Assembly (NCBI GenBank): GCA_949289445.1
Contig: CASEOD010000046.1
Span: 1 to 54,430 of the forward strand
Reading direction: 5' to 3'
DNA from: an uncultured Eubacteriales bacterium
GTDB taxonomy: Bacteria; Bacillota; Clostridia; Peptostreptococcales; Anaerovoracaceae
DNA length: 54,430 nt
Of this stretch, positions 13,740 to 54,430 are shown piece after piece. Both the position numbers and the translations under genes were made by a program. The notes beneath the pieces were generated by a model that was not told the origin of the DNA, searched no databases, and was given only the letters and a program-made list of their open reading frames with translations. Numbering within the stretch: the stretch's first letter is position 1; every line of letters begins with the position of its first letter.

Positions 13740-13880
13740 TGTAAGCCGCCTGCGGCGGTTCACGAATCTGGTACTCAATAAAAAGCCCTGTCCTCCGGTG
13801 GCCGTAAGACAGGGTCAATATCTATATATTGTACCTCGGCGGGAAATTAAGCCTTGCGGCACCCGCTGTCTACGGTTAAA
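13740..13880 (-). ncRNA. Ribosomal L10 leader (autoregulatory element of rplJL)
   Basis: The minus-strand transcript begins with AACCGUAGACAG, followed by GGUGCC, GCUUAAU and GCCGAGGUA, the conserved landmarks of the Firmicutes L10 leader. L10, or the L10/L7-L12 complex, binds this RNA and lowers expression of its own operon. An intrinsic terminator lies within the element, so control may be by attenuation. Confidence 0.88.
13779..13815 (-). terminator. Attenuator hairpin in the L10 leader
   Basis: On the minus strand CCCTGTC (stem), a 15-base loop and GACAGGG are followed by CTTTTTATT. This is a classical intrinsic terminator located about 60 bases before rplJ. A second small GC-rich hairpin (CCGCC...GGCGG) follows before the ribosome binding site. 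Confidence 0.8.
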
Positions 13881-13901
13881 TCTCAAATTCTGTGTTTTTG
13901 A

Positions 13902-25088: not shown

Positions 25089-25132
25089 ACGTTTTCTTCA
25101 CCTTTCTTCCTATATCTGTACCATCCTGTATC

Positions 25133-27703: not shown

Positions 27704-28639
27704 TTACACCTTTCCCAGAATCTCTACATTCATATTGGCATATTTTTCAAAACAGATTTTAATTTCCTCCAGATATTCATCGTCCGGAGGTCTAAAAGTC
27801 ATCGGCTCACCGCCTGTATTCCGCATCTTGAACACACCCAGATCATGATATGGCAGCAGAGTTAGCCTTTTCAATCCATATTCTCTGTAAAGATCCGCCG
27901 TCCTCTCAATGAGATCCCGGGAATCATTTACACCTGCTATCAGAGGCATTCGCATCTGAATCTTCTCCGCCGTGGTTCTTTCTGATGAGAGCTTTTTCAG
28001 ATTTCCCAGAATCAGCTCATTGCTGCAGCCGGTATAGGTCCTGTGTATCTCATCATCAATGGATTTCATATCATAAAGAATATCGGTTACATTGGGCAGT
28101 AAAGCCATACTTTTCAGCCAGTCTCCATCACCGTATCCTGAAGTGTCCAGACAGACATCAATATTTTTTTCAGCTGCAAGCCGAATCAGCTCTTCTGCAA
28201 AACCTGCATGAGAAAGAACTTCTCCGCCTGAAATTGTCATACCTCCGCCTGTATGATGATAAAAACCGATATCCTGTTCCACCTCGTATAAGACTTCTTC
28301 TGCTGTCATTTCTCTGGCAACCCTGGCAAGTCCTTTTGCGTAGCAGAAATCTGCACACTCTAAACAGTTGTCGCACTTTTTTCTGTCGATTTCGATTTTT
28401 TGGTTCTCATCAATATAAATAGCATTTTTAGGACAGTGAGTAAGACAGTATCCGCATTTTATACAGCTGTTGGGCATTTTGATTATCTGCTGCTCAAACC
28501 CTATCATTTCGGGATTGTGGCACCATTTGCAGTTAAGCGGACATCCCTTCAAAAATACGGTGGTCCGGATACCCGGACCATCCTCAGTAGAAAACTTCTG
28601 AATTGCTCCAACCAGAGCCGTCTTTACTTTTGTTTCCAT
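27704..28639 (-). CDS. Glycyl radical enzyme activase (radical SAM)
   Basis: A 311-residue PflA-like activating enzyme. The radical-SAM cluster motif CxxxCxxC is C33-C37-C40 (KGCPLNCKWCHNPE). Two extra ferredoxin-type 4Fe-4S sites follow at C59/62/65/69 and C89/92/95/99, as in activases of eliminase- and decarboxylase-type glycyl radical enzymes but not in PflA itself. It would use S-adenosylmethionine to form the glycyl radical on the partner encoded 106 bases upstream. The pair is on one transcript with an aldo/keto reductase. Confidence 0.95.
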   Translation of the reverse strand: METKVKTALVGAIQKFSTEDGPGIRTTVFLKGCPLNCKWCHNPEMIGFEQQIIKMPNSCIKCGYCLTHCPKNAIYIDENQKIEIDRKKCDNCLECADFCYAKGLARVAREMTAEEVLYEVEQDIGFYHHTGGGMTISGGEVLSHAGFAEELIRLAAEKNIDVCLDTSGYGDGDWLKSMALLPNVTDILYDMKSIDDEIHRTYTGCSNELILGNLKKLSSERTTAEKIQMRMPLIAGVNDSRDLIERTADLYREYGLKRLTLLPYHDLGVFKMRNTGGEPMTFRPPDDEYLEEIKICFEKYANMNVEILGKV

Positions 28640-28745: not shown

Positions 28746-31118
28746 TCACGATTGCTTGAAGTGGGTGGTTCTGTAAATAATAGTGTCCTGCGCACTTTTA
28801 TCCAACTCTGTAAAGTAGGCCATGTAACCTGCCACACGGACCATCAGACCCTTATAGTGCTCCGGATGTTTCTGTGCCGCTTTTAAGGTTTCGTCATCGA
28901 CCACATTAATCTGGATATGTTCTCCGCCGTGAGCAAAATAGGTCTTGATAACGCCTTCAATGCTGGCAAGACCCTTTTCTCCTTCCACACCTTTAGGATC
29001 GAAACGCAGGTTGAACAACGCACCGTCATGAAAATCAGACTGCCCCATGGAAGCTACTGATTTGACCGTGGCAGTCGGTCCGCTAATGTCTCTGCCCATC
29101 ATCGGAGAAGCATTATCACAGAACGGTTCCCCTGCCATTCTGCCGTCGGGAGTCGCTCCACACACCATACCGTGAGAAACATTGACAGTCTGTGAATGAA
29201 CATTAAAGGAAAACCTTCCGCCTCTGGCATCTGGCCAAGTTTGAACATTATCTGCAATAAAGTGCATCATTTCCCGATAAATACCATCCACATGTTCTTT
29301 GTCGTTTCCGAATTTTTCTGGTTTGTTTAACAGCAGCTGCCGAAGTCTTTCCTCACCTTCAAAGTTTTTGTCCAGAGCCTCAATCAGCTGTTCCATAGTT
29401 ATATCCTTATCCTCAAAAACACATTTCTCTATAGCCGCGATAGAATCAGCCAGATTTGCGGCTCCGGTAATGTACATGCCGGCAGTACAGTATTTAGCCC
29501 CGCCCTGCTGAACGGATTTTCCGCTTTCCACACATCCTTTTGTCAACATGGAAGCAAATATTACCGGGAATCTGGTCATATGAATGCTCTGCATTACTTT
29601 ATATCCCGTAGCAACCAGCTGATAATGATAAAGAATCTGCTTTTTCAGCGCATCCTTAAACTCTTCGATATTCCGGAACTTTCCGGGGTCCCCGGTCTGA
29701 AGACCCATCAGTTTTCCCGTGGACGGATCTGTCCCGTTATGCAAAACGAATTCCAGCATTTTGCCCATATTCACATAGCCTGCATCTGGTGAGCCGTCTG
29801 TAGTTCCTCCCCCGGGACCCGGCTGAATACAACCCACAATTGTCCAGTCTCTGGCTTCTTCTATGGTACATCCTTTTCCCAGAGTCATCTGCATAGCCGC
29901 ATTGTCATTGAAAAATCCGGGGTTGGCCTGCCCTTCCTGAATCATCTTACATCCCTTGCGAATCAGCTCTTCCGGAGTTTTCTCCCATACTCTCACTGCC
30001 ATAACCGGCTGAGTGGTTTTCAACTGATTTGCTGCTTCCAGGCACAGATAAGACAACTCATTAGTGGCATCCCGGCCATCAGGCGTCTGTCCGCCCACCA
30101 CCAGAATCTCCCACATAGGGTAACCTGCAAATGAGGTGGCATACCACTTATCCCTCACCTCATAAACCTCACAGGCTTTTAGATACAGGCATTCCAAAAG
30201 TTCCAGCGCCTCTTCCTGAGTAATATTCTTTTCATCTATGACATCCTTTTTGTAATAAGGCCACATGTACTGATCGAATCTGCCGAACCCGCAGGCAGTA
30301 GTACACACTTCAATATGAAAGTATACGTGCGCAAACCAGATCATCTGAAGCGCCTGCCAGAAATTCTGCGGCGGATTTTCCGGTACTGTACGACAGTTTT
30401 CTGCAATCGTCAAAAGTTCTTTTTTTCTTTTTTCATCGCTGCAGGCGGCTGCCTGATACTCAGCTTCTTCAGCCATTCTGTGTGCATAGGTGATCAATCC
30501 TTCACACTGAATTATGCACGCTTTCCAGTAGTCTATCTTTTCCTGATCCTCCCGGCACTGGCTGACCATTGCATCAATATTGTTTCTGCATTCTTCCATA
30601 TATCCAGCAAGGCCTACAGTCAAAAGTTTTTCATGATCGCAGGTAGTTTCTCCGGAAACTCCGTTTCTGAGGCCAACTGTAATAATATCATCCTGAATAC
30701 ACTCCTCAATATGAGATGGCAATGCTGTCCTGGAAAGATCCTCCATGGATCTTCCCTCCCAGTATTTCAAGGTCTCCAGAATCTGTTCTCTGTCCTCAGG
30801 AGAAATGTCATACGGATCTTTGGTTCTTACGGGGAAATCGTCAATATCACTGATATACCAGGAACTGGACTGAAATTCAGGGTGTAGATTAGCTCCTCTG
30901 TACTTGTTGGTAGCTGTTCCTACAATAAGTTCATCCTCCATGATCAGCGTCGTCATCCGCTCTGCAATATACTTTACTACCTCCGCCCGGAAAACAGGAA
31001 CCGCATCTCCTGCAAACTTCTTATATGCTTCTGTTGCCAGCACAACTCGCTCTGCAGTAATGCATGGTCTGGTATTCCAGAGCTTATTTCTCATACGTGT
31101 AATTCTTTCGTTAAGCAT
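28746..31118 (-). CDS. Glycyl radical enzyme of unassigned substrate, atypical thiyl motif
   Basis: A 790-residue glycyl radical enzyme of the PFL2/dehydratase-like branch, full length. The radical glycine is G764 (RVAGY) near the C-terminus and the thiyl cysteine is C430. Most eliminases and decarboxylases of this branch carry GCxE, where the Glu two residues after Cys is a catalytic base. Here it reads GCIQPG, so Q432 replaces Glu. Other pocket candidates by position are H162 and D282 (GRFDQY), near the positions recalled for the HypD dehydratase (H160, D278). Length and Cys/Gly positions are close to hydroxyproline dehydratase HypD (C434, G765). The reaction is not predictable. The flanking aldo/keto reductase suggests a carbonyl product. 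Confidence 0.93.
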   Translation of the reverse strand: MLNERITRMRNKLWNTRPCITAERVVLATEAYKKFAGDAVPVFRAEVVKYIAERMTTLIMEDELIVGTATNKYRGANLHPEFQSSSWYISDIDDFPVRTKDPYDISPEDREQILETLKYWEGRSMEDLSRTALPSHIEECIQDDIITVGLRNGVSGETTCDHEKLLTVGLAGYMEECRNNIDAMVSQCREDQEKIDYWKACIIQCEGLITYAHRMAEEAEYQAAACSDEKRKKELLTIAENCRTVPENPPQNFWQALQMIWFAHVYFHIEVCTTACGFGRFDQYMWPYYKKDVIDEKNITQEEALELLECLYLKACEVYEVRDKWYATSFAGYPMWEILVVGGQTPDGRDATNELSYLCLEAANQLKTTQPVMAVRVWEKTPEELIRKGCKMIQEGQANPGFFNDNAAMQMTLGKGCTIEEARDWTIVGCIQPGPGGGTTDGSPDAGYVNMGKMLEFVLHNGTDPSTGKLMGLQTGDPGKFRNIEEFKDALKKQILYHYQLVATGYKVMQSIHMTRFPVIFASMLTKGCVESGKSVQQGGAKYCTAGMYITGAANLADSIAAIEKCVFEDKDITMEQLIEALDKNFEGEERLRQLLLNKPEKFGNDKEHVDGIYREMMHFIADNVQTWPDARGGRFSFNVHSQTVNVSHGMVCGATPDGRMAGEPFCDNASPMMGRDISGPTATVKSVASMGQSDFHDGALFNLRFDPKGVEGEKGLASIEGVIKTYFAHGGEHIQINVVDDETLKAAQKHPEHYKGLMVRVAGYMAYFTELDKSAQDTIIYRTTHFKQS

Positions 31119-36110: not shown

Positions 36111-37217
36111 TTATTTTCTCTTTCGCTGCCGGAAAGGCACATAATCCACATCAATACCGAAGTGTCTCGGCCCGAATACCTCGAGTCCCTTCTCACATTT
36201 CCAGATTTCCGGAGCAGGCAGTACAATGACATTGATCTCGTCACCCACTTCAAAGTCAGGAGTTGTCATCGGATTGCCGTTCTTATCGATCATACAGATC
36301 AGATCAGGAACAGTCACATCCGGCTCACCGTTCCTGAAGGAAGCGATATTTTCATTTTTGAACGTGATACGATAAGACTCTCCCCGGTATTCCTTTATTC
36401 CGTCCAGATAAATATCCCCAAACTGAAAACCGTCTCTCAGCTCCCATGGCATGGCGCTGACTGTACCACGGAACAGCACTTCTCCGTCGCAGGCGTCTGA
36501 GATTACCGAAGCTGCATCCTGCTTCTCCTCTCCGGCTTTTCTAAGCAGTCTGCCGATTTTCAAAGCATAAGTGATTGCGCCGGAAATAATCGCGTTTTTG
36601 TACTGCCTTATGGTCATCGGATGATCACTGACACTGATATCATCCCCACTGACTGTGGCAACGGCACGAACCAGTGTTTCGATACGAAGATCATCCAGCA
36701 TTTCTCTGAAGATCATCACCTCACCGAATTTTGTAACCACTGCCATCGGTGCGCTTGGAAGATCTTTTATATAAAAAGTGGACTGAGAGAGTTCCGGTAC
36801 CGCTCTTCCCGCAGGGTCTCCGTCGGCCAGCGGAATGTCCAGAAGACATGCGATGTGTAGCGCCTCAGCAGTATTCATCCCTCCCATTTCCGAAGAAGAT
36901 ACAGCGGCAAACTTATGACCGATTTCTTTTTCCAGAGCGTGAAATGCCATCACAGCAGAAGATTCCACTTTCGGAAGCCGATCAAGTTCAGGAGGCAGTG
37001 GTGCGCCGACAGCGGCCGGTGCTCCGCATCCGTAAGGAATGGTAATATAGCCGTCTTCCGGCAGCTCATCCAGATCTGCAACTTTTAAGGTTCTTCCTTT
37101 CTCAAAATCTTCCTTCATAATTTGAAGACCGTGCTCCAGCTTGCCGCCCCCTCCGGTACCCAGCAGTGTGCAGCCCAGCAGCAGATCTTTCATGTCCTGT
37201 TTCTCTAATGTAATCAT
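36111..37217 (-). CDS. DUF917 / S-methyl-thiohydantoin desulfurase-like protein (copy 1)
   Basis: A 368-residue protein of the family formerly called DUF917. Hallmarks are the N-terminal LGTGGGG loop (~18-24), GCGAPAAVG, EMGGMNTAEALH, GDPAGRAVPEL and the C-terminal CMIDKNGNPMTTPDFEVGDEINVIVLPAP. At least one characterised member, to my knowledge, acts on S-methyl thiohydantoin; otherwise the family is poorly known. The second of three possible starts is used, eight bases after GGGGAGG. It follows its paralogue by 17 bases. Confidence 0.85.
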   Translation of the reverse strand: MITLEKQDMKDLLLGCTLLGTGGGGKLEHGLQIMKEDFEKGRTLKVADLDELPEDGYITIPYGCGAPAAVGAPLPPELDRLPKVESSAVMAFHALEKEIGHKFAAVSSSEMGGMNTAEALHIACLLDIPLADGDPAGRAVPELSQSTFYIKDLPSAPMAVVTKFGEVMIFREMLDDLRIETLVRAVATVSGDDISVSDHPMTIRQYKNAIISGAITYALKIGRLLRKAGEEKQDAASVISDACDGEVLFRGTVSAMPWELRDGFQFGDIYLDGIKEYRGESYRITFKNENIASFRNGEPDVTVPDLICMIDKNGNPMTTPDFEVGDEINVIVLPAPEIWKCEKGLEVFGPRHFGIDVDYVPFRQRKRK

Positions 37218-37234
37218 AATCATGTCCTCCCCTA

Positions 37235-38338
37235 TTAACGATTTCTTCTATCAAAAGGAATATACTCCTCATCAATTCCAAAATACTTCGGTCCCAGAAC
37301 AGCAAGGCCCTCTTTTGTCGTCCAGGGCTCCGGCGCCGGTAAAACTATCACGGTCATCTCCAGTCCGGGCTGACAGACCGGATTGGTTACCGGTTTTCCG
37401 TCTCTGTCAATCATACAGATAAGATCCGGCACCGTCGCCGCAGCTTTGCCATTCAGGTAGACCACAAGATTCTCATTCTTATATACAATCCTGCAGTTCT
37501 GCCCCGCATAATCTTCCCGTCCGTCCAGATAAATTTCACCACAGTCAAAGCCTCCTCTGCACTCCCACGGCGCTTCCTTTACAATGCCGCGGAACAGAAC
37601 TGCCCCGTTCTGTGTTTCTGCAACGGCGGCAGCCGCATCTTCCCCTTTTTCCCCGGCTTTCCTCAGAGTTCTTCCGATGTCCAGCGCATTGGAAATTGCG
37701 CCGGTTATAATGCAATCCCGGTATTCCCGTCCTGTCATGGGATGATCACAGACACTGATTTCGTCGCCGCTGACACATGCCATGGCCCGAACCAGCGCCT
37801 CAGCCCGAAAATCATCAGCCACTTCTTTCAGAATCACCACATCTCCGAATTTTGTGGCTGCAGAAAGAGGCGCAATAGGCTTATTCTGCAGATAGTAGGT
37901 GGAGTGAATCAGCTCCGGCACCGATCTTCCGGCAGGATCTCCGTCAGCCAGCGGCAGTCCCAGCAGGCAGGCGACGTGCATAGCCTCTGCTGTGTTGGCT
38001 CCGCCAAGTTCTGTGGAAGCCACCGCGCAGAACTTCACATTCATAAAGGTTTCCAGTCCATGAAAAGCCAGCGCTGCGGGAGAACCCTCCACTGCTGCAT
38101 GATTTTCCCCATTTTCACAGTGACCTTTCTCTGCAGAAGGCGCGCCACAGCCATAGGGAGTCGCCACATAGCTGTCATCCGGAAGTTCCGCCGGCGAAAT
38201 CAGTTTCAGAGTCTCTCCTTTATTAAAGTGCTCCTGCATCATGGCAAGTCCTTCTTCCACGCTGCCGCCTCCTCCGGTGCCGAGCACTCCGCATCCGTAA
38301 AGAAGATCTCTCATATCCTGTACGGTCAGTTCTCTCAT
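37235..38338 (-). CDS. DUF917 / S-methyl-thiohydantoin desulfurase-like protein (copy 2)
   Basis: A 367-residue paralogue of the next gene with the same motifs: LGTGGGGSVEEG, GCGAPS, ELGGANTAEAMH, GDPAGRSVPEL and CMIDRDGKPVTNP. The two copies are clearly related but diverged, so they may form a heteromer or act on successive or different substrates. The start (MRELTVQ) lies one base after the permease stop codon, with GGGAGG inside the permease end, so translation is coupled. The longer upstream reading overlaps the permease gene and is rejected. Confidence 0.85.
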   Translation of the reverse strand: MRELTVQDMRDLLYGCGVLGTGGGGSVEEGLAMMQEHFNKGETLKLISPAELPDDSYVATPYGCGAPSAEKGHCENGENHAAVEGSPAALAFHGLETFMNVKFCAVASTELGGANTAEAMHVACLLGLPLADGDPAGRSVPELIHSTYYLQNKPIAPLSAATKFGDVVILKEVADDFRAEALVRAMACVSGDEISVCDHPMTGREYRDCIITGAISNALDIGRTLRKAGEKGEDAAAAVAETQNGAVLFRGIVKEAPWECRGGFDCGEIYLDGREDYAGQNCRIVYKNENLVVYLNGKAAATVPDLICMIDRDGKPVTNPVCQPGLEMTVIVLPAPEPWTTKEGLAVLGPKYFGIDEEYIPFDRRNR

Positions 38339-38339
38339 A

Positions 38340-39602
38340 TCATTTCGCCTCCCTGGACCGAGACGGCATAAACCGCTCCACAATTATGTAGGCAACCATT
38401 GATATGATGATACCGGTCCAGGCATATGCCAGAAGATAAGCAGCTACTGCGCCTACGGCCCAGCTGATCACACCGACCCAGCAGGTTCCTTCAACAGAAT
38501 GCCAGTTCTGAGGCTTTCCCTTTCCCACAATCCAGTAATCCGCAATCATTACGCCGCCTACCGGACACACCAGATATGCCAGAAAGCTGAGAAATGCCTC
38601 AACGTGATCCAGTACTCCAAAAGCGCCCAACAGTGTTCCGATTACGCCGGCAACGATGGTTACTTCCCGTCTGCGGTGATCGGGCATATTAAAGGCCATG
38701 ACCACATCCAGTCCTCCGCTGTAAATATTGGAGGAATTTGTAGTCCAGGTAGAAAGAATAATCGATAAAATTCCCATAAACGGAAGTCCAACCTGAATCA
38801 GCACCATACTGATGTCATATTCGTTGGAAATCTTTGTCAGAATCGCCCCCAGAGAAAGGGTAATCACAGCGATAGGCAGTACACCCCAGATTGTTGATTT
38901 TGCGGTTTCGGCTCTGTTTCTCTGAAAGCGGGAAACATCGGCAGCCGTAACAACTCCTACAGCATAAAAATCAAATGCAAGGCTGACCCCCGCCATGAAG
39001 CTCATTCCTCTTTCCACCTCAGCGTTGGCGCTTTCAAAACCGTATTCCCGAATGGCAAGAACAGTTCCCACTGCCATCACTATGAGCAGAAACGGAATTG
39101 AAACGGCGTTCAGCTTTTCCATAGCCCGCATACCGTATACTGCGGTAATCAGCATGATCAGGCCCCAGAGAATATTGGAAGCCAGCAGCGGAAAGTGAAT
39201 ATTGAAAGTCTCTGCCATAAAATTAGTAAAAGCATCTCCGCAGATTTCATTGGTGATACCGAACCACCCCACCAGGTTTATGGCAAAAACCACGCTGACC
39301 AGATACCTTGCTCCTGTTTTTCCAAAACAGGACTCAGAAAGTGTGCAGGAGGCCAGCCCCAGATCACTGCCTGCAAATCCTATTATCGTCATAAAAATGA
39401 CAACCAGCAGATTCCCCAGCGCGCCTGACAGAATCGCCTCTCCCAGCGGCATGGCTTCTGCCAGCAGTGCCCCTTCCAGAAATGAAGAAGCGCAGACACA
39501 GATACCCGCCTGTACCAGTGCCAGAGAAATCCAGCTCTGCCGCTCTTCTTTCGGAATCGGCGCCAGCGCATTGGCTTCTACGTGTTTTTGTTTCTCACCC
39601 AT
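38340..39602 (-). CDS. NCS1-family purine/cytosine/hydantoin-type permease
   Basis: A 420-residue membrane protein with about 12 hydrophobic helices and the CodB/NCS1 pattern. This includes GAxLGNLLVV (SGALGNLLVVIFMTIIGFAG), GWFGITNEICG and the WTTNSSNIYSGGLDVVMAF segment. NCS1 carriers import nucleobases, hydantoins or allantoin with Na+ or H+. As first gene of an operon with two DUF917 enzymes it probably imports their cyclic ureide or hydantoin-like substrate. AAAGGAG precedes the ATG and a TATACT -10-like hexamer lies about 40 bases upstream. Confidence 0.9.
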   Translation of the reverse strand: MGEKQKHVEANALAPIPKEERQSWISLALVQAGICVCASSFLEGALLAEAMPLGEAILSGALGNLLVVIFMTIIGFAGSDLGLASCTLSESCFGKTGARYLVSVVFAINLVGWFGITNEICGDAFTNFMAETFNIHFPLLASNILWGLIMLITAVYGMRAMEKLNAVSIPFLLIVMAVGTVLAIREYGFESANAEVERGMSFMAGVSLAFDFYAVGVVTAADVSRFQRNRAETAKSTIWGVLPIAVITLSLGAILTKISNEYDISMVLIQVGLPFMGILSIILSTWTTNSSNIYSGGLDVVMAFNMPDHRRREVTIVAGVIGTLLGAFGVLDHVEAFLSFLAYLVCPVGGVMIADYWIVGKGKPQNWHSVEGTCWVGVISWAVGAVAAYLLAYAWTGIIISMVAYIIVERFMPSRSREAK

Positions 39603-46752: not shown

Positions 46753-46792
46753 AAAATGACGAAAAACCTCCGGCATGGTTTTCCGTCATTTT
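46753..46792. terminator. A/T-rich palindrome downstream of the corrinoid operon
   Basis: AAAATGACGAAAAACC and GGTTTTCCGTCATTTT pair across an eight-base loop with one mismatch. Flanking A and T runs make it a possible bidirectional terminator, the second in tandem after the symporter gene. Confidence 0.65.
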
Positions 46793-46805
46793 TCTCTTAC
46801 AGAAA

Positions 46806-46859
46806 AGAGGGGCAGCCGCTCTGCGATGATCTTTTCCCCGCATAAGCTGCAGCCCCTCT
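46806..46859 (-). terminator. Terminator after the NSS symporter gene
   Basis: GAGGGGC and GCCCCTC close a large imperfect hairpin; on the minus strand it is followed by TTTTC. It lies about 40 bases past the symporter stop codon and ends the corrinoid-protein/MttB/HyuA/NSS operon. Confidence 0.7.
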
Positions 46860-46900
46860 CCTTATCAATGCATCTATTTAATTGCCTTCAGGATTCTGTT

Positions 46901-48208
46901 TTAAATGAAATTCCCAAGGAAGATCACTGCAATGGCTATAGGGCAGACATATTTCACAGAAATGCCCAGCCAAGCACGCAGTCCTTTATTTTTTACATTG
47001 ATAGCATCCAGGAAGTTATTGACACCCCAGACCCATCCGACAAAAATGGCAATAAGCAGCCCGCTGATAACCAGAAGGTAATTGCTGGTGTAAATATCCA
47101 CTGTATCCAGGAATCCCGGAATCAGAATAGACATACTTCCGATAATCACTGCAACACCCATAACTACAATGACTGCTTTTTTCCGCTCCATCTGAAATCT
47201 GTCCATCACTACTGCAATGACAGCTTCAGCAAGACCAATGGCAGAGGATAGTGCTGCAAAGTAGAAACCGATATAGAAAACAGTACCGATAATTCTTCCT
47301 CCCGCAATATAATTGAATACATTAGGAAGGGTAACCATAGTCAAACCTGCACCGGCGCTTGGTTCCAGACCAAAGGCAAATACCATAGGGAATATCATCA
47401 GTCCGGATGCTATTCCCGCGAATACAATAGAACCACAGATAATGGATGACTGTTTCACAATATTCTCGTTTTTATTCTTGATATAGCTTCCGAATACCAT
47501 GGAAGCCAGCATACCGATACCGATTGCAAAGAAAGCCTGACCTACAGCGGCAGTCACAGCATCCAGCGAGAAGGTGTCTGCATTTGGCTTGAACATATAT
47601 TCAAGCCCCTTGGAAGAACCTTCAACCTGCAGACCGATAACAATACATACGATCATAATAACCGCAAGAGCAGGCAAAAGGAACTTGTTCACCTTTTCGA
47701 CACCGCCCTGTACACCCCGGCTGATGATAAAAGCTACAATGGCCCAGTTGATAATTGCGAAAATAAACATGGTCTTGTAATCCACATTCAGCTCACCAAA
47801 AGATGCGGCAATGTCATCCGGTCCCATTCCCTGGAAAAAGCCAATGGCCGTTCTATAGATATAAATCAGAACCCATGCATAAATAGGAACCGTATAACTG
47901 TTGACCAATACTCCTACAATAATATGTAAATATGCAGAAAAATGCCATTTGCTGTTTGGTTTCAGAGTCTGATAAGCCCCTATCGCCGTTTTCTGGGTCA
48001 CATAGCCCATAGAAATCTCTGCCGTCAGCAGAGGTACTCCGATGACAACGATAACTACAATATAAGTAATGATAAACAGTGCGCCACCGTTCGTTCCGCA
48101 GACATACGGAAATCTCCAGAGACTTCCCACACCTACGGCAAATCCGATAATCGTCATCAGAAATCCAAACATCGAACTGAATCCTTCATTTTGTTTTTTC
48201 TCCGTCAT
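46901..48208 (-). CDS. Neurotransmitter:sodium symporter (NSS) family transporter
   Basis: A 435-residue LeuT-fold transporter with about 11 helices. The unwound TM1 substrate/sodium site is recognisable as GFAVGVGSLWRFPYVCGTNGG (near residue 20), with LTAEISMG in TM2-3. Bacterial members import amino acids with Na+. Its ATG overlaps the stop of the HyuA-like gene (ATGA), so it is coupled to a corrinoid methyltransferase operon. A quaternary or N-methylated amino acid is therefore a reasonable substrate, by inference. It is the last gene of the operon. Confidence 0.93.
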   Translation of the reverse strand: MTEKKQNEGFSSMFGFLMTIIGFAVGVGSLWRFPYVCGTNGGALFIITYIVVIVVIGVPLLTAEISMGYVTQKTAIGAYQTLKPNSKWHFSAYLHIIVGVLVNSYTVPIYAWVLIYIYRTAIGFFQGMGPDDIAASFGELNVDYKTMFIFAIINWAIVAFIISRGVQGGVEKVNKFLLPALAVIMIVCIVIGLQVEGSSKGLEYMFKPNADTFSLDAVTAAVGQAFFAIGIGMLASMVFGSYIKNKNENIVKQSSIICGSIVFAGIASGLMIFPMVFAFGLEPSAGAGLTMVTLPNVFNYIAGGRIIGTVFYIGFYFAALSSAIGLAEAVIAVVMDRFQMERKKAVIVVMGVAVIIGSMSILIPGFLDTVDIYTSNYLLVISGLLIAIFVGWVWGVNNFLDAINVKNKGLRAWLGISVKYVCPIAIAVIFLGNFI

Positions 48209-50226
48209 TTCACTTTCACTCCTTTCTCGCAGTCGAGACTTCCGGTGGCTGCCGCAGACACTTTATATCCCATGAACAGCGGTCCGAAATCAGTCTCAAT
48301 AATACTTTCTTTCTCTTCCAGTCTTACCTGTGTATCCTGTCCGGCACCCCGTTTTACTGCCTCCTGAAACGCTCCGTATCTTGCCCTCTGCCTTGCAAGA
48401 TCTTTTGCTTCTTCCAAATCCTTGCAGATATAACGTTCTCCTTTACCGAAAACAGTATAAGATCCGTCCTGTTGATTGAGAGTAATCTCCATAACAACTT
48501 TTGCACTGATGTTCCCAACGATGGCACCCAGTGCATTGGCTACCTGAGAATAATCCGGTGTAACGACTCTGGCTCCCAGCAGACCGGCTGCCTGAGGCAG
48601 GAATACATGTGTCGGCGCACCTACCCCGATAAAAGCAGCCTTTGAAGAAAAGATCGGCCTGAAAAATCCGTCCTGTAGCTGACCTTTTGCATCCTCGTAC
48701 GCTTTTCTGAGCACAAGATCCAGATCTGCTCCCAAACTCTTCCCCTCAAGTTCAGGCAGCCGATCCATAATTAAAACTCTGGCCAGATTATAATAGAGCT
48801 TCCAGCAAACTGCCTCATAGATTTCCTCACAAATCTGTTCCTCACTTTTGTGGCCAATCGCCGCCATTCTTCTGATGCCCTCTCTTGCGCATATCTGATC
48901 GTAAGCGGTAAAATCACCTTTCAGATGCATGGCATCTGTCGGCGTTACGCCGCACCGGATCACAACACCTTCACGAATCAGTCTGGATAGATTCTTTCTG
49001 AGTATCCGCCTTTTCAGACGACCGTCAAGTTCTGCCAGCGTCACAGGGCATTTCTGCAGAAGTTCTGCGATAAGCTGTTCCTCTTCTGTATAGTTGCTGC
49101 TACCGCTGATGTCTTTTAAAACTGCATAAATTTCTTCTCTCTGAGAAGAGAGAAAAGCTCCTTTTTTTCCGATTTCTCTCAGTTTTTCCCGCAGAGACGG
49201 CCAATGACTTCCCGCCATGCACAAAGGCATCACCTTTTCCTCCTGCAGAGTAATCCGGCCGAAATCATCAAGCACTACGCCGCTGTCTCCTCCCAGACCG
49301 AAAGTATCCACATACAGGCCTTTTACAAAAGTGTTCCAGCCACCGATCCTGACACCCTGTTCCACCCGTTTGGCAACACCGTTTTTCATCAGTGCGATAT
49401 CTGTAGTAGTGCCGCCCATATCTACAACCACACAGTCTGTTTCGTCTGTCAGTTCCACTGCTCCCATCAGACTGGCTACAGGTCCGCAGAGCAGAGTTTC
49501 TACAGGGAACTCCTCCGCAAAGGTTTCATTCATCAAGCTCCCGTCACTTCTGACAATAACAAAGGGGACATTCAGTTCAAGTCGATTCAGTGCTCTCTTC
49601 ACCGAAACAATAAATTCCCGAATTACTGCAATCAGCTTTGCATTGAGCAGCACACAGGCTCCTCTTTTCACAATATTATTTTCTGCAAAGAGCTGATGAC
49701 CGCTGACCACCGGGATATCCGTAAATTCCCGGATAATCTCTTTTGCCTTTTTTTCAAGGACTGCGCCGGATTTCTTTGCGAACATCTCCGCCACTCCCAC
49801 CGCATCGCAGTCCTTCAGTTCTTCCCTGACAATCTCCCGGAACTGCTGCCAGTCAGGTTCTTTCACAATCCGCCCGTCAGGTTTTGTCTTGCTGTCAACA
49901 AATATGAGAGAGCCGGGCTCGGATAAACCGTATTCCTCACCGACCCGAATCACCGTATCCCGATTTGCTCCGAAAAAGACTACTTTGGCCCTTCCCCCTT
50001 TATTTTCTACGCAGGCATTGGTTGCCAAAGTGGTGGAAAGCGCAATAACTTCAGCTTCGCCTCTCAGTCCTTCCGGCAGCTGCTGTAAAGCCTTCTCAAT
50101 TCCCACAGACAGATCTTCCCTGGTTGTGGCAGTTTTTGCCCAGGCAAGAATTTTTCTTTCACCAAAGTGATAGATCACTGCATCCGTGCATGTTCCGCCT
50201 GTATCTATACCAATTCCAATCTTCAT
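48205..50226 (-). CDS. Hydantoinase/oxoprolinase (HyuA)-family ASKHA ATPase with embedded winged-helix-like insert
   Basis: A 673-residue protein. Actin-like phosphate loops are present at IDTGGTCTDA (7-16) and VVDMGGTTTDIA (267-278), and GLGGDSG (310-316) is conserved in HyuA proteins. Residues ~380-430 (LIAELLQKCPVTLAELD...LSRLIREGVVIRCGVTP) look like a winged helix inserted in the fold. The family hydrolyses ATP to open hydantoin or oxoproline rings, but no HyuB partner is present. The gene is inside a methyltransferase operon, between mttB and the symporter. It could instead be a corrinoid-protein activator, which also uses an ASKHA fold. No iron-sulfur cysteine cluster like that of RamA was seen. 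Confidence 0.85.
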   Translation of the reverse strand: MKIGIGIDTGGTCTDAVIYHFGERKILAWAKTATTREDLSVGIEKALQQLPEGLRGEAEVIALSTTLATNACVENKGGRAKVVFFGANRDTVIRVGEEYGLSEPGSLIFVDSKTKPDGRIVKEPDWQQFREIVREELKDCDAVGVAEMFAKKSGAVLEKKAKEIIREFTDIPVVSGHQLFAENNIVKRGACVLLNAKLIAVIREFIVSVKRALNRLELNVPFVIVRSDGSLMNETFAEEFPVETLLCGPVASLMGAVELTDETDCVVVDMGGTTTDIALMKNGVAKRVEQGVRIGGWNTFVKGLYVDTFGLGGDSGVVLDDFGRITLQEEKVMPLCMAGSHWPSLREKLREIGKKGAFLSSQREEIYAVLKDISGSSNYTEEEQLIAELLQKCPVTLAELDGRLKRRILRKNLSRLIREGVVIRCGVTPTDAMHLKGDFTAYDQICAREGIRRMAAIGHKSEEQICEEIYEAVCWKLYYNLARVLIMDRLPELEGKSLGADLDLVLRKAYEDAKGQLQDGFFRPIFSSKAAFIGVGAPTHVFLPQAAGLLGARVVTPDYSQVANALGAIVGNISAKVVMEITLNQQDGSYTVFGKGERYICKDLEEAKDLARQRARYGAFQEAVKRGAGQDTQVRLEEKESIIETDFGPLFMGYKVSAAATGSLDCEKGVKVK

Positions 50227-50288
50227 GTCTTCCCTCTAAAAAAGCAGGGCAAAGAAACTTCCTTAATATGTCCCTTCGCCCCGAAAAT

Positions 50289-51749
50289 TTATCCTTTGAT
50301 CTTGCTTGCCGCATCAGCAGCATCCAGGATCTTCTGAATTTCTTCTTCCTGTGCCTCTGTCAGCGGTTTCGGCACATAATTCTTAATGACGTCTTCTACA
50401 ATAGCATGGGCTCTCTCTTCCATAGAAAGGCTGCCCAGCTGCTGCCATTTAATGTGCTCGTTTCTGTCCTGTACTTTCGGTTCCCACATTTCTTTCATAT
50501 GTTTAACGGTGTGATCCTCAGCCAGGAAATATCCTTTCGGCCCTACAGACTTGATAACATCCATAGCCAGATTTTCTTCCGTCAGATTCACACCACAGAA
50601 TACTCTTCTCAGCTGACTGATAACCTCATCCATCATAACCAGGAATTCGAAAGAAAATGTCAAACCGTAGTTCATAAAGCCAACGTCATGACACAGATTT
50701 ACGCCGGAAAGGCCCGACAGATACGCCTGCTGCGTGCCTTCCGCCACTGCCTGTGCGTCCGGCATTTTGGATCCGCAGGCGCCGCCCATACCCCAGGTAG
50801 GAAGATTATAGAGTTCTCTTCCAATCTGCGGAATCATACTATAGCACATATTAGCTTCAGGCGAGGAATAAGCCGGCTGCGTAATCTTCAAATCCATATT
50901 GGTGATACAACCACCGAATACAAACGGTGCACCCGGCTTCGCAAGCTGATGAATAACAATTCCTGTAAGGCATTCTGCAAGGCACTGTACCAGCGCGCCT
51001 TCCATGGTCATAGGCCCGGTTCCCCCCATCATGATAGCCGGAGCATAATTCGTCGGCAGCATGTTCTCTGCGCAGTAAATCAGCTTATCCACCGCCTCAA
51101 AGGTATGATTCAGCGGTGAAGTCGGCTCATCATACAAAATAATCAGTGGTTTGTTGATGGCTTCTTCCATACCGCCGCGAACAACTGCCATCATTTCGGC
51201 AATATTCTTGATACTCTCACGGTCTGCGGCTGTAACTACCATAGGCTTGGTGGTGTTTCTCAGCATTGCCGCAAACTGATGCTCATAGCTGGTCCCCGGA
51301 TACATATACATGAGACCCAGGCACATGAGAAAATCTATGTTTTCCAGGCTGTCAGCCAGTTTTGCTCCGTTGATCATGTCCTGTTCTGTGAAAGTATGAT
51401 GGGATCTGTTCTCCCAGTCGTAAAGATTACAGCAGTCAGATCCTGTTCCGAAATATGAGTTTCTGCCGCTCAGATCCATAGCAAATTCACCGTCTCTGTC
51501 ATAAAGCAAAATCCTGGACGGAGCCTGCTTCAATGCCCACTCTACCAGTGAAGGCGGAAAGTGAACTCTCTTTCTCTTCACATAACAGCCCGCATTTTTG
51601 AGCATCTCGATAGCACCCTTATGCTGAATCTCCGCTCCTGTATCCTGCAATAATTCCAAAGCACAGCTGTGAATTTTTTCCATTTCTTCTCTGGACAGGA
51701 ATCCCAGAGGAGAAGCTGCATTTACTTTTAACGGATATTGTTTTCTCAT
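50289..51749 (-). CDS. Trimethylamine methyltransferase (MttB) family protein, non-pyrrolysine
   Basis: A 486-residue MttB-superfamily (COG5598) methyltransferase. Recognisable segments are GTGSDCCNLYDWE (~101-113), PTSPLNHTFEA, MMGGTGPMTMEGALVQ and GGACGSKMPDAQA (~322-334). No in-frame amber codon interrupts it. The region where pyrrolysine sits in methanogen MttB encodes ordinary residues. Non-pyrrolysine relatives demethylate glycine betaine, proline betaine, carnitine or gamma-butyrobetaine and pass the methyl to a cognate corrinoid protein, here encoded upstream. The exact betaine is unknown. AGGAGG precedes the start. Confidence 0.93.
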   Translation of the reverse strand: MRKQYPLKVNAASPLGFLSREEMEKIHSCALELLQDTGAEIQHKGAIEMLKNAGCYVKRKRVHFPPSLVEWALKQAPSRILLYDRDGEFAMDLSGRNSYFGTGSDCCNLYDWENRSHHTFTEQDMINGAKLADSLENIDFLMCLGLMYMYPGTSYEHQFAAMLRNTTKPMVVTAADRESIKNIAEMMAVVRGGMEEAINKPLIILYDEPTSPLNHTFEAVDKLIYCAENMLPTNYAPAIMMGGTGPMTMEGALVQCLAECLTGIVIHQLAKPGAPFVFGGCITNMDLKITQPAYSSPEANMCYSMIPQIGRELYNLPTWGMGGACGSKMPDAQAVAEGTQQAYLSGLSGVNLCHDVGFMNYGLTFSFEFLVMMDEVISQLRRVFCGVNLTEENLAMDVIKSVGPKGYFLAEDHTVKHMKEMWEPKVQDRNEHIKWQQLGSLSMEERAHAIVEDVIKNYVPKPLTEAQEEEIQKILDAADAASKIKG

Positions 51750-51782
51750 GATATCTTTCCTCCTAGTTTTTTAGCCGATAAA

Positions 51783-52418
51783 TTATGCCAGCAGTTGTTT
51801 CGCCAGTTCTACCGCCATCGGCGCATTAGGGCTGTATCCGTCAGCTCCGATTTCATCTGCAAAGGACTGATTCAGCGGCGCACCGCCTACCATAACTTTT
51901 ACTTTATCTCTGAGACCGGCTTCTTCCAGTGCTTCAATGGTTTCCTTCATAGCATACATGGTAGTGGTCAGCATAGCGCTCATGCCCAGGATCTGAATAG
52001 AAGGATCTTCCTCGATAGCTTCCACGATTTCATCCGGCGGTACATCCATGCCGAGATCCACTACCTCAAAACCTGCGCTTTCGCAGAGCAGTGTTACCAG
52101 ATTCTTTCCGATATCATGCATATCTCCCTCTACCGTACAGAACAGACACTTTCCCAGTACTTTAATATCACCGGTTACCAGAAGCGGTCTGATTACCTCT
52201 ACTCCCAGTTTCATACCTTTAGCAGCGATAAGAAGCTCAGGAACGTAAATCTCTCCCAGACGGAACTGTTCTCCCAGCACATTGATCGGTTCCACAAGGC
52301 CCTCATTAAGTACATCCAGCGGGGCATTTCCCTCATCCAGAGCAGCCTGCACAGCATCCGCTACCTCCGCATATCTTCCCTCTTCCACAAGCTTTGCAAC
52401 TTCTGCAATTTTCGACAT
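51783..52418 (-). CDS. Corrinoid (cobalamin-binding) protein of methyltransferase system
   Basis: A 211-residue MtgC/MttC-like protein. The N-terminal ~85-residue helical cap (LNEGLVEPINVLGEQF) is followed by a Rossmann-type B12 domain with DxHxxG as D99-M-H101-D-I-G104. GMSAMLTTTM and VGGAPLNQSFADEIGADGYS complete the cobalamin site. His101 is the expected lower cobalt ligand. It carries the methyl group from the MttB homologue to a second methyltransferase, which is not in this window. The ATG six codons into the longest reading is chosen because GGAGGTG lies correctly before it. Confidence 0.95.
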   Translation of the reverse strand: MSKIAEVAKLVEEGRYAEVADAVQAALDEGNAPLDVLNEGLVEPINVLGEQFRLGEIYVPELLIAAKGMKLGVEVIRPLLVTGDIKVLGKCLFCTVEGDMHDIGKNLVTLLCESAGFEVVDLGMDVPPDEIVEAIEEDPSIQILGMSAMLTTTMYAMKETIEALEEAGLRDKVKVMVGGAPLNQSFADEIGADGYSPNAPMAVELAKQLLA

Positions 52419-52441
52419 TCCGCACACCTCCATACAACTGT

Positions 52442-52508
52442 TTCGTCACTTTTCATTCTTTTGCTTTACCAATCCTTTAGGTGAGTTTGTCACCATCTCT
52501 TCGTCACT
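52442..52508 (-). promoter_or_regulatory. Structured 5' leader of the corrinoid operon
   Basis: In the minus-strand transcript two copies of AGUGACGAA flank a small hairpin GGUGA-CAAAC-UCACC. The leader is about 150 bases long from the predicted transcript start to the first codon. I recognise no known riboswitch class. It may be a regulatory RNA or protein-binding site. Confidence 0.35.
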
Positions 52509-52528
52509 TATAAACCGCGGTCAAATTA

Positions 52529-52537
52529 TTATCCACA
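52529..52537 (+). other. Single exact DnaA box
   Basis: TTATCCACA, the strongest form of the DnaA recognition sequence, lies within the leader of the corrinoid operon. The nearby TATAAACCGCGG is shared with element B around 41600. A lone box may be chance. Confidence 0.35.
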
Positions 52538-52543
52538 AAACAC

Positions 52544-52559
52544 CGTGCATCGTGCATTG
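52544..52559 (-). promoter_or_regulatory. Operator-like 7-bp repeats at the corrinoid operon start
   Basis: The minus strand reads CAATGCACGATGCACG, two tandem ATGCACG units. They begin about 15 bases downstream of the -10 of the corrinoid promoter, a position where a bound repressor would block transcription. Equivalent units occur at 52680-52699. Confidence 0.6.
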
Positions 52560-52573
52560 TTTTTTGTTTCCTC

Positions 52574-52602
52574 ATTATAACTCTGTATGCCTGACTTGTC
52601 AA
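52574..52602 (-). promoter_or_regulatory. Consensus promoter of the corrinoid-MttB-HyuA-NSS operon
   Basis: Perfect TTGACA (52597-52602) and TATAAT (52574-52579) with a 17-base spacer on the minus strand. Such a strong promoter for a catabolic operon implies control by repression. Confidence 0.8.
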
Positions 52603-52637
52603 TAAGTTTTTAATTTTCAGAAATATAAATTTATATC

Positions 52638-52666
52638 TTGACTTTTGCTGCGGATAGTAGTATGAT
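52638..52666 (+). promoter_or_regulatory. Promoter of the amino-acid dehydrogenase gene
   Basis: TTGACT and TATGAT with a 17-base spacer on the plus strand. It is back to back with the corrinoid operon promoter, their -35 hexamers 35 bases apart. Confidence 0.75.
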
Positions 52667-52679
52667 AGGCAAAAATAAA

Positions 52680-52699
52680 ATGCATGATGCATGATGCAC
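52680..52699 (+). promoter_or_regulatory. Operator-like 7-bp repeats at the dehydrogenase start
   Basis: Two tandem ATGCATG units and a partial third (ATGCAC) begin 14 bases after the -10. The layout mirrors the opposite promoter, so one regulator, possibly the GntR protein encoded nearby, may bind both. Confidence 0.6.
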
Positions 52700-52746
52700 T
52701 TTATAATTTAAAATTTATTTCACTTATAAAAAGGAGGGACTTGATC

Positions 52747-54075
52747 ATGAAAAGCTTGTGCACACCGATGAAGGCAGAAGGCCTGACCACGCTGAAAATC
52801 CGCTATGACTGGAAAAAAGACAATTTTAAAATGGAAATGATGAAACAGTGGGAACCGGATCTTGACTTCAGCAAATATAACAAAGAGTTTTATGTGGAGA
52901 GTATTCTCACCGATGATGTTATCTATTTGAACACGAAGCAGGTTCGAGCTCTTTATCAGAAATATGGTTTAGAAGATTACCTGGATGAAATTCTGGATCT
53001 GATTAGACAAGGCCGCCACTTTGGTATCGAATGCTATTACAATGACAAATACAATATCCGTTTTATGTGTCATCAGCACAGCAGAAAACTGGGTATTAAC
53101 AACAGACTTCATGCAACTCTTGCCGGCGGCATCAGACGTCATGATGTTGCTGAAGAAGAAAAAGAGGTTATCATTGATGGACTCAATCTGGGCAGAGGTA
53201 TGAGTTTTAAAAATGTCGCAGGTAATTTGGCCTTCGGTGGATGTAAAACCACAGTGCAAATGGATGATCTGGATCTGAATAATATGGAAATCATGGGATT
53301 CCTTGGATTTGCTATTGACAGTTGCAGAACAATGACTGGTCCTGACATGAACTTTCCTACAAAAATGGCTGATGTAGAAAATGCCAATTTCTCCATGAAC
53401 TACACCAGCGGTCCTAATTCGCCACTTGGAGAAACCGGAAAACCGACAGCCTACGGTGTTTATGTGACGCTGAAAGAGGCCGTGCGTTTCCGCGAAGGTA
53501 CCCGCAGTCTGGACGGAAAATCCGTAGTTCTGATCGGCCTGGGAGCCGTGGGCTGGTATATGGGTGAGTATCTTCTGCAGGAAGATGTCACACTTTATAT
53601 CGCCGACTTAAATCCTGACACAGCACAGCGCTTTAAGGATTCAAATCCGGGGAAAAAGATAGAAATTGTTCCTCTTTCCGACGCACTGTACATGGATGTG
53701 GATATTTTATGTCCTTGTGCGATCGGCGGAATCTTCTGTGATGACAATATTCCAAAACTCAGGTGCAGTTATATCTGGGGCTCTGCCAATAATCAGCTGA
53801 AAGCCTCCAGTCAGGAAGAAGAGATTAGAATTTCAAAGCTGCTGGCAGAAAGAAATATTCTGTTCCAGACAGAATGGTGGCATAACACAGCCGGTGTTAT
53901 CTGCGGTGCACAAGAGTATCTGGAAGGAAAAAATGCCAGCTACGATAAGCTGATCAAAGTCATCGACGACACTATGCCGAAACAGACCTTTGACAATCTG
54001 ACAAAAGCTGCAGAACTGGGCATTACACCATGCGAAAATGTCTACAGAACATGTCAGGCCATCATATACGGATAA
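52747..54075 (+). CDS. Glu/Leu/Phe/Val-type amino-acid dehydrogenase with N-terminal extension
   Basis: A 442-residue oxidative deaminase. Catalytic motifs match leucine dehydrogenase: K155 in GRGMSFKN and K167 in FGGCK, 12 residues apart as in LeuDH Lys68/Lys80. They are followed by D200, the NAD-binding GLGAVG (264-269) and the C-terminal CPCAIGGIF and GSANNQL motifs. About 80-100 residues at the N-terminus exceed LeuDH length. It would convert an amino acid plus NAD+ to a 2-oxo acid and ammonium. Divergence from a corrinoid methyltransferase operon suggests it acts on the demethylated product. AAGGAGGG precedes the chosen ATG; an earlier ATG lies in the operator repeats. Confidence 0.88.
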   Translation: MKSLCTPMKAEGLTTLKIRYDWKKDNFKMEMMKQWEPDLDFSKYNKEFYVESILTDDVIYLNTKQVRALYQKYGLEDYLDEILDLIRQGRHFGIECYYNDKYNIRFMCHQHSRKLGINNRLHATLAGGIRRHDVAEEEKEVIIDGLNLGRGMSFKNVAGNLAFGGCKTTVQMDDLDLNNMEIMGFLGFAIDSCRTMTGPDMNFPTKMADVENANFSMNYTSGPNSPLGETGKPTAYGVYVTLKEAVRFREGTRSLDGKSVVLIGLGAVGWYMGEYLLQEDVTLYIADLNPDTAQRFKDSNPGKKIEIVPLSDALYMDVDILCPCAIGGIFCDDNIPKLRCSYIWGSANNQLKASSQEEEIRISKLLAERNILFQTEWWHNTAGVICGAQEYLEGKNASYDKLIKVIDDTMPKQTFDNLTKAAELGITPCENVYRTCQAIIYG

Positions 54076-54095
54076 TAAAAAGTTCATTGTACGGT

Positions 54096-54124
54096 TTGCA
54101 GGACTTCTGAAAATAGTGTATAAT
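54096..54124 (+). promoter_or_regulatory. Promoter of the GntR gene
   Basis: TTGCAG and TATAAT are separated by 17 bases, about 85 bases before the regulator ATG. No clear copy of the ATGCAYG repeat is present here. Confidence 0.65.
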
Positions 54125-54210
54125 ATTACCGGTAAGTTCCATGCAGACCGTTTTTCTATTTTTGTCTGCTGAAAATCCGGAACCTGCCAATTTTCTGAGG
54201 AGGACTTTCT

Positions 54211-54430
54211 ATGACATTGATTGCAAAGAAAAGCGTGAGAGATCAGGTATACGACGTAATTAAACAAAAAATTTTCAACCAGGAATATCAGTTGGGCGAT
54301 ACCATCAATATTACCTCTCTGTGCAAAGAACTGGGTGTCAGCAATACACCTATCAGAGAAGCTCTTGCCAGACTGGAGGCAGAAGGTCTGGTTACAACAA
54401 CAATGAGTTCCAAAGTCAATGTCATCAATA
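54211..54430 (+). CDS. GntR-family transcriptional regulator, N-terminal part (cut by window edge)
   Basis: The first 73 residues are inside the window. They form a GntR winged helix-turn-helix: SVRDQVYDVIKQKIF, then INITSLCKELGVSNTPIREALARLEAEGLV. The NTPIREALARLEAEGLV recognition part is typical of the FadR/FCD subgroup, whose missing C-terminal domain would bind a small acid. AGGAGG lies correctly before the ATG. It is the best candidate regulator of the methyltransferase/dehydrogenase locus. Confidence 0.9.
   Translation, partial: MTLIAKKSVRDQVYDVIKQKIFNQEYQLGDTINITSLCKELGVSNTPIREALARLEAEGLVTTTMSSKVNVIN

Follow-up and report, generated by a model that had tools for sequence, protein, structure and literature searches.

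We describe here a possible system for the breakdown of N-methylated amino acids, encoded at the right end of a 54,430-base stretch of bacterial DNA (the window), which is one whole contig of a 2.14 Mb draft genome (G000, ~85% complete) of a gut-type bacterium from the family Anaerovoracaceae. On the minus strand, the genes for a corrinoid protein (mttC), a non-pyrrolysine MttB-superfamily methyltransferase (mttB), a HyuA-like ATPase (hyuA) and a sodium symporter of the SNF family follow one another in this order. On the plus strand, a gene for an ELFV amino-acid dehydrogenase (DH), divergent from mttC, is followed by a GntR regulator gene that is truncated by the contig end. We show that a single transporter clade is common to the DH modules and the mtt modules of this and related genomes, which, at the level of sequence, ties the two modules together. 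Our tentative reading, to which we give a little less than an even chance, is a GntR-controlled regulon through which an N-methylated bulky (aromatic or branched) alpha-amino acid would be imported and demethylated and the product oxidized. The named relatives of the window's genome are an Emergencia metagenome-assembled genome (MAG) and Eubacterium-type MAGs; genomes, contigs and loci are given below by G, C and L numbers.

RESULTS

One transporter clade accompanies both dehydrogenase and methyltransferase modules

The best solved relative of the window symporter is 4us3, which we take to be MhsT. When the symporter was searched against 345 family genomes (E up to 1e-90), it fell into a clade of 17 copies from 12 of them. 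Eleven copies lie beside a DH gene only (G334:C42, G033, two in G341, G108, G159, G131:C4, G134, G334:C64, G000:C26 and G131:C3), three beside mttB only (G334:C74, G109:C68 and G008:C20) and one, that of the window, beside both, while two lie at contig ends (G030 and G054); as the members of the clade are akin, these counts of neighbors are not independent. For a control we took 30 SNF loci from ten of the clade-bearing genomes, each with ~1.5 kb of DNA to the left and right of the match, or less where a contig ends. Six of these loci hold clade members. In the remaining 24 (23 genes, with no more than 36% identity to that of the window), no match to DH or MttB is present.

The likeness extends to stretches within the membrane segments. 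The TM6 stretch GQAFFAIGIGMLASM is identical in the window symporter, in the mtt-linked copies of L029 and L154 and in the DH-linked copies of L046 and L045 (the downstream one), with one Val/Ile difference among them directly after it, and TM1 is nearly the same in all of these except L154. At the TM3 column that holds a Tyr in 4us3, Thr is found in 16 of the 17 clade rows, whose Tyr stands at the preceding position, and L154 has Ile. A single clade of the four mtt-linked transporters is rejected (approximately unbiased (AU) p 2.5e-57), and the G008 transporter, 69% identical to the window's, accompanies an MttB that is only 34% identical to the window's. The G008 copy belongs to an independent mttB-mttC-SNF run (L154, G008:C20, 6511-10156) with an MttC of its own, and HyuA has no match at this locus. 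At L045 (6586-11589), a transporter copy stands on each side of the DH gene (74% and 77% identical to the window's), and a second GntR match lies upstream of the first copy, in what is apparently a local duplication.

Operator-like sites at the divergent promoters

The DNA between mttC and the DH gene contains two divergent promoter-like pairs (Table 1), and promoter-like matches across the region as a whole are not above those in shuffles. Past the -10 box of each pair, in the direction of transcription, lies the pattern TGCAYNRTGCA. The window has four matches to it, one of them elsewhere (39977), compared with a mean of 0.35 in shuffles, and 0 of 100 shuffles reach four; the pattern was derived from the window first and then sought elsewhere. 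At L028 (mttC) and at L045 and L046 (DH), the first site lies 14-20 nucleotides (nt) past a promoter-like pair, and upstream of the L030 operon it lies 13-15 nt past a weaker pair. Besides the window's, the genomes with such sites are G339, G341, G334 (DH) and G109, and in the rest of the 197 loci (1.25 Mb, ~0.88 Mb distinct) the pattern occurs only in L092 and L121. The distribution across loci thus makes the shared site a feature of the genus and G109. The sites would presumably be bound by the GntR protein, whose encoded part in the window is 70-71% identical to the mttC-adjacent GntR of L028 and L029 (the latter a GntR-FCD protein) and 64-68% identical to the DH-adjacent one of L046 and L045.

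A branch of MttB separate from the placed known enzymes

The window MttB matches the methyltransferase domain over its full length (307 bits, profile positions 20-491 of 500) and aligns an Ala with the pyrrolysine column of Methanosarcina barkeri MttB. Its predicted structure (mean pLDDT 72) matches the fold of 9yce and 7xcl. Judging from their adjacency, MttB and MttC would form a cognate pair.

In a tree of 72 rows, which includes 40 of the 42 MttB matches of the Eubacterium limosum-like genome G900, the window MttB falls within a 12-row clade with support of 100/100. Its closest relatives are in L028 (G339, 91% identity), L029/L038 (G334, 90% for L029) and L030/L040 (G109, 69% for L030). 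They are followed by a HyuA-type group from Acetobacterium (57-59%), a second Acetobacterium type (51-52%) and G682 (49%). Close Acetobacterium relatives are present in A. wieringae (L031/L032) and in G620, G710, G918 and G919; of these last four and G682, wider context was read for G620, G710 and G682. MtgB (9yce and two Acetobacterium copies, 68-69% identical to 9yce) forms a separate clade (100/99) and is 30% identical to the window MttB. None of the 40 placed G900 paralogues enters the window clade, the best being 37% identical, and these rows are not matched to individual enzymes; the 42 matches equal in number the MttB homologues reported for E. limosum ATCC 8486 (PMC8604678; here and below, papers given by PMC number are cited from excerpts). 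The E. limosum enzymes MtpB, MtcB, MtyB and MthB thus appear not to be close to the window MttB. In this respect the tree supports the earlier suggestion of a possibly undescribed system, as it sets the window MttB outside the characterized substrate clades placed on it, apart from MtgB and from the 40 G900 paralogues.

Two more MttB genes were observed in the window's genome (G000:C69:23942-26741; L001, L026), the first with an in-frame TAG, a pyrrolysine-type pattern; they share a contig with iorAB and buk.

A dehydrogenase with a possibly enlarged pocket

We take the residue roles and numbering of leucine dehydrogenase (LeuDH), including the pocket columns 40, 113 and 294, as presumed background. 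On this basis, three residues of the window DH, Lys176, Lys188 and Asp221 (counted from position 52684), correspond in the alignment to the lysines and the aspartate of LeuDH. The three catalytic residues are kept in 12 of 12 DH family rows, and the window DH also keeps GSANNQL. The protein scores below the cut-offs of all curated NCBIfam models compared, namely the ScyB Trp dehydrogenase (135.5 against 600, the best), GdhB (36.1 against 620) and GdhA (27.2 against 750). The columns of LeuDH Ala113 and Val294 are Gly in the window DH, the first of these being Gly also in tryptophan dehydrogenase (TrpDH), and the residue at the Leu40 column is Ala when aligned with HMMER and Gly when aligned with MAFFT. 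Because these residues are smaller than those of LeuDH, the alignment suggests a pocket larger than that of LeuDH. In the window's genome, ptb and buk genes are found close to a paralogous DH module (L025), and iorAB-buk occurs elsewhere (L026); buk is also close to the L019 DH module. This context fits the fermentation of aromatic or branched-chain amino acids.

HyuA and the fate of the methyl group

The HyuA model (mean pLDDT 73.6) matches structures of N-methylhydantoinase, acetone carboxylase, acetophenone carboxylase and caprolactamase, and its conserved ATPase-like motifs are intact. No HyuB partner lies beside hyuA, whose neighbors are mttB and the transporter gene (this concerns the locus, the rest of the genome not having been searched for HyuB). 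Ferredoxin and RACo domains are absent from the protein, which has Hydantoinase_A domains instead. A role as reductive activase of the RamA/RACo kind is unlikely and was set aside as the simple reading, as separate RACo/RamA-type genes are present in the L030, L088 and L089 clusters. It is also doubtful that HyuA is a protein dedicated to mtt systems, given that an MttB-like gene stands beside only 1 of 28 short HyuA loci (L066 among L050-L077). One of these, the HyuA relative of L050 (G336, 52% identity), has no MttB beside it. HyuA is probably best regarded as an ATP-using accessory protein, whose ATP step may possibly be directed at the substrate or at the corrinoid; in E. limosum, activation of choline by a kinase precedes its demethylation (PMC12155760). 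A paralogue within the genus (L052-L054, L070, L071; 40-41% identity) is found away from MttB, in a setting that recurs and includes a hydrolase-like gene and one encoding ~220 amino acids (aa), both named by eye.

As for the methyl group, acetyl-CoA synthase has no match in the draft and incomplete genomes G000, G334, G339, G109 and G008 and one marginal match in G341. These organisms are therefore probably not acetogens, and an acetogenic fate of the methyl group was rejected on the same evidence. PF00809 is found in two proteins of G000, one of them in an 801-aa frame that is MetH-like by eye; the acceptor may be tetrahydrofolate or methionine synthesis.

Gene inventory and other features of the window

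The four minus-strand genes apparently make up one operon, with gaps of 33 bases between mttC and mttB and 62 between mttB and hyuA, and of -4 between hyuA and the symporter gene (Table 1). All the genes named in the initial annotation are present at or near the places where it put them, and the starts of mttC and DH are revised. The likely start of mttC is 52418, by its better ribosome site, the protein having 211-216 aa depending on the start. The DH gene probably starts at 52747 rather than 52684, because the ribosome site AAAGGAGGG precedes MKSLCTP, because 52684 falls within the operator-like repeat and because related proteins start near the same motif. Three sequence features that had been read from the genes also hold: DMHDIG in MttC satisfies the cobalamin motif DxHxxG, mttB is an open frame of 486 aa with no in-frame TAG, and Lys176 and Lys188 of the DH align with the catalytic lysines of LeuDH.

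Table 1. Features at the right end of the window (positions count from its first base)
Feature	Position	Strand	Basis
Terminator-like stem-loop with T-rich tail, 3' of the transporter gene	46753..46792	-	position is the sole support; such sites are no commoner than in shuffles
SNF/NSS sodium symporter, MhsT-like; 4-base overlap with hyuA	46901..48208	-	PF00209 2.2e-47; 4us3 E 1.8e-70
HyuA-like ASKHA ATPase, 673 aa	48205..50226	-	PF05378, PF01968
Non-pyrrolysine MttB-superfamily methyltransferase, 486 aa	50289..51749	-	PF06253 1.4e-91; TIGR02369 394.5 bits (cut-off 525)
MttC-type corrinoid protein	51783..52433	-	PF02310, PF02607; TIGR02370 194.5 bits (cut-off 215.3)
Operator-like site TGCATCGTGCA, 17 nt past the -10 box of the mttC promoter	52546..52556		pattern match
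mttC promoter-like pair TTGACA-17-TATAAT, 12/12	52574..52602	-	consensus match
DH promoter-like pair TTGACT-17-TATGAT, 10/12	52638..52666	+	consensus match
Two overlapping operator-like sites TGCATGATGCATGATGCA, 14 and 21 nt past the DH -10 box	52681..52698		pattern match
ELFV amino-acid dehydrogenase (442 aa with the likely start, 463 aa with 52684)	52747..54075	+	PF02812, PF00208
GntR regulator, first 73 codons, truncated by the contig end	54211..54430	+	sequence

Elsewhere in the window, a glycyl radical enzyme of 790 aa (28746-31118, minus strand) stands with its activase (27704-28639, minus strand); the enzyme reaches 674.6 bits with PFL2-3 (cut-off 678.2) and 605.5 with hydroxyproline dehydratase (cut-off 1100), and a cyclodeaminase/alanine-dehydrogenase-like gene and an aminotransferase gene lie near it (23949-26149). 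At 36111-39602 (minus strand), two adjoining genes with similar N-termini stand beside a cytosine-permease-like transporter gene. The one tested is akin to S-methyl thiohydantoin desulfurase (92.7 bits, cut-off 450), and the pair is possibly a heterocycle catabolism unit. A Ribosomal protein L10 leader (Rfam RF00557, 70.1 bits) is found at 13770-13893 (minus strand).

DISCUSSION

In the scheme that we propose, the MhsT-like symporter would bring in the N-methylated amino acid together with Na+, MttB would transfer the N-methyl group to Co(I) of MttC, and the methyl-corrinoid would pass it on to tetrahydrofolate or methionine synthesis. The DH would oxidatively deaminate the freed amino acid to a 2-oxo acid, which would be fermented through a 2-oxoacid:ferredoxin oxidoreductase and then a butyrate-kinase-type kinase. 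The substrate, the direction of flux, the binding of GntR and the methyl acceptor are what we infer in this scheme. As to the class of substrate, secondary and tertiary N-methyl amino acids are as possible as quaternary betaines.

The initial annotation had arrived at import, demethylation and oxidation of an N-methylated amino acid from the pairing of the DH with the methyltransferase genes. That premise fails, since conserved linkage of the two is absent from all relatives read: outside the window, no DH gene lies beside mttB among the MttB relatives read, some of them on short contigs (6.4 kb for L028 and 9.3 kb for L030). As far as plain gene linkage goes, this is an outcome that the initial annotation had itself named as refuting it. 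Relatives of the DH occur in 10 of 148 family genomes, two of them distant (~30% identity), and in 3 of 13 genomes of the genus, the window's genome being included in both counts. In the 13 DH loci outside the window, an SNF gene adjoins DH in 10 and mttB in none. What now links DH with mtt is the transporter clade and, among close relatives, the operator-like site, and it is on these that the reading is kept. Together they narrow the substrate class and point to a small panel of compounds for testing.

A number of observations weigh against this reading. The window's genome is the only one seen with DH and mttB side by side. G339, whose genome is ~83% complete, has mttB and no DH match, G341 has DH and lacks a close mttB at E up to 1e-90, and G109 and G334 carry the two modules on separate contigs. 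An SNF neighbor of DH is lacking in three of the 13 other DH loci, two of them on short contigs (L020, L022) and the third (L023) with an amino acid permease nearby. The exact pattern TGCAYNRTGCA is present in just 2 of the 13 other DH loci (L045, L046) and, within the branch, in 2 of the 3 further mtt loci (L028, L030), the copy in L029 being degenerate. L017, L018 and L155 carry GTGTGCACAC instead, and the pattern is absent from L019-L025, L047, the Acetobacterium loci L031, L032 and L087-L089, and L090, L154, L156 and L157, with no G682 or G008 locus having it. Moreover, named PDB relatives show that NSS transporters also carry betaine, glycine and gamma-aminobutyric acid (GABA), so that kinship of transporters is an indirect guide to substrate. 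The MttB model, poor at residues 286-296, 323-329, 347-364 and 385-440, gives no reliable substrate pocket.

The nearest MttB relatives outside the family, the Acetobacterium HyuA-type genes, pull in another direction, as their context is glycine betaine-like. The block that precedes them contains the second MttB type, another MttB (the third) and a gene for a BCCT transporter, and in A. wieringae they are followed by gcvT, gcvH and gcvP. The neighborhood of the G682 member includes a gene for an MtgB-like protein (39% to 9yce) and one for an OpuAC sensor. This agrees with the main rival reading, in which mttC, mttB and hyuA demethylate dimethylglycine or sarcosine of the glycine betaine series, the symporter imports that substrate, and the DH is a separate enzyme, perhaps under the same regulator. 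We regard it as the main rival because an mttC-mttB-hyuA layout has been published for glycine-betaine fermenters (PMC9768040). In the excerpts of that paper, the products of the DCMF order MtgC-MtgB485-MtgC-MtgB488-HydA668-MtgA are more abundant on glycine betaine, clusters syntenic with its MtgC-MtgB488-HydA668 half are found in Sporomusa ovata and 'Ca. Frackibacter', and the authors leave undecided which MTI acts on dimethylglycine. However, next to the operons of the window, L028, L029 and L030 we saw neither a BCCT-like gene nor one for glycine cleavage (neighbors mostly judged by similarity or eye), the transporter belongs to the clade found with DH modules, and the DH promoter bears the same operator-like sites. 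We thus consider a glycine-series substrate somewhat unlikely for the window operon. It may be that the wider MttB clade is glycine-series and that a shift of substrate has taken place in the Emergencia/G109 branch, the one branch in which this transporter was found.

The tie between the modules could also be one of place. Related SLT-transglycosylase genes flank the DH modules of L045 and L046 and the mtt module of L028 in sister genomes, and mtnA followed by two EamA genes, which adjoin the window operon, recur as a set ~3 kb from the L045 DH module. The shared flanking genes therefore indicate that mtt and DH modules occupy one region singly or together, and this also fits a functionless hot spot that swaps catabolic modules, where mtt and DH share a site, related transporters and GntR regulators while acting on unrelated substrates. 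DH-only (L045, L046), mtt-only (L028) and joined (window) arrangements with common flanks are what such a hot spot would leave, as are the two modules of G334, on different contigs and each with its own SNF transporter and GntR, and the confinement of the operator-like site to close relatives and G109. In contrast, modules that lie apart still have matching transporters, in G339, G341, G334 (DH) and G109 they also keep the operator-like sites, and the transporter clade is paired with a quite different MttB in G008. On balance, we find a mere hot spot unlikely.

If the regulon for an N-methylated bulky amino acid is taken to its full extent, the locus would encode a complete anaerobic catabolism of such compounds in a non-acetogen, with MttB acting on secondary or tertiary forms, ATP-dependent help from HyuA and a new ELFV subfamily. 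We consider this extended version quite unlikely. Were it true, pyrrolysine-free demethylation of secondary and tertiary substrates would need a new explanation in chemical terms, for which the HyuA ATPase would be a candidate. Hypaphorine as a named substrate was considered and rejected, no corrinoid demethylation of it having been found among the open-licence papers listed, and it is retained as a test compound only. The question is of wider interest, since substrates are lacking for many MttB-superfamily proteins (PMC8604678, PMC10653893, excerpts) and the host family, through the name Emergencia, is akin to gut bacteria studied for methylamine metabolism.

Comparison with known systems bears out only part of the earlier impression that no characterized system has this set of genes. 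The layout of corrinoid protein, MttB and HydA is already published (PMC9768040), whereas none of the titles and abstract openings listed from the open-licence literature describes an MttB system that includes either an SNF transporter or an amino-acid dehydrogenase. What looks new is thus a branch of non-pyrrolysine MttB paired with an amino-acid-type symporter, joined here by a DH under what is seemingly one regulator. Compared by layout and not by sequence, the cluster of 'Ca. Formimonas warabiya' DCMF is alike in order and lengths (210/488/668 aa against 211-216/486/673 in the window). It has BCCT transporters and an MtgA-type MTII where the window has an MhsT-like symporter, GntR and the DH (PMC9768040, excerpts), and no MTII or BCCT gene was found beside the window operon, the DNA to the right of GntR lying beyond the contig.

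The Acetobacterium cluster (L031/L032, L087/L088 and L089) has the same mttC-mttB-hyuA core as the window and an MttB of the same clade, and no published assay of it was found in the open-licence literature. Unlike the window, it contains a BCCT gene (Pfam-checked in L031), further MttB genes and a gene of the URO-D/MtaA-CmuA type, with a RACo/RamA-type activase in L088 and L089, and no SNF, GntR or DH gene was seen in it. MtgB of Desulfitobacterium hafniense (2qne, 9yce) shares the fold and the non-pyrrolysine MttB superfamily with the window MttB but stands in its own supported clade. In E. limosum, MtpB, MtcB, MtyB and MthB are likewise non-pyrrolysine MttB proteins acting with a corrinoid protein, and these systems demethylate a quaternary amine or its phosphate (PMC8604678, PMC12155760, excerpts); the placed paralogues of the E. 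limosum-like G900 all lie outside the window clade. Finally, the Leu, Phe and Trp dehydrogenases (3vpx, 1c1d, 5b37) are like the window DH in ELFV family and in the catalytic Lys/Lys/Asp, whereas the window DH has an N-terminal part ~85 residues longer, lies far below the curated cut-offs and, compared with LeuDH, has smaller residues at the pocket columns.

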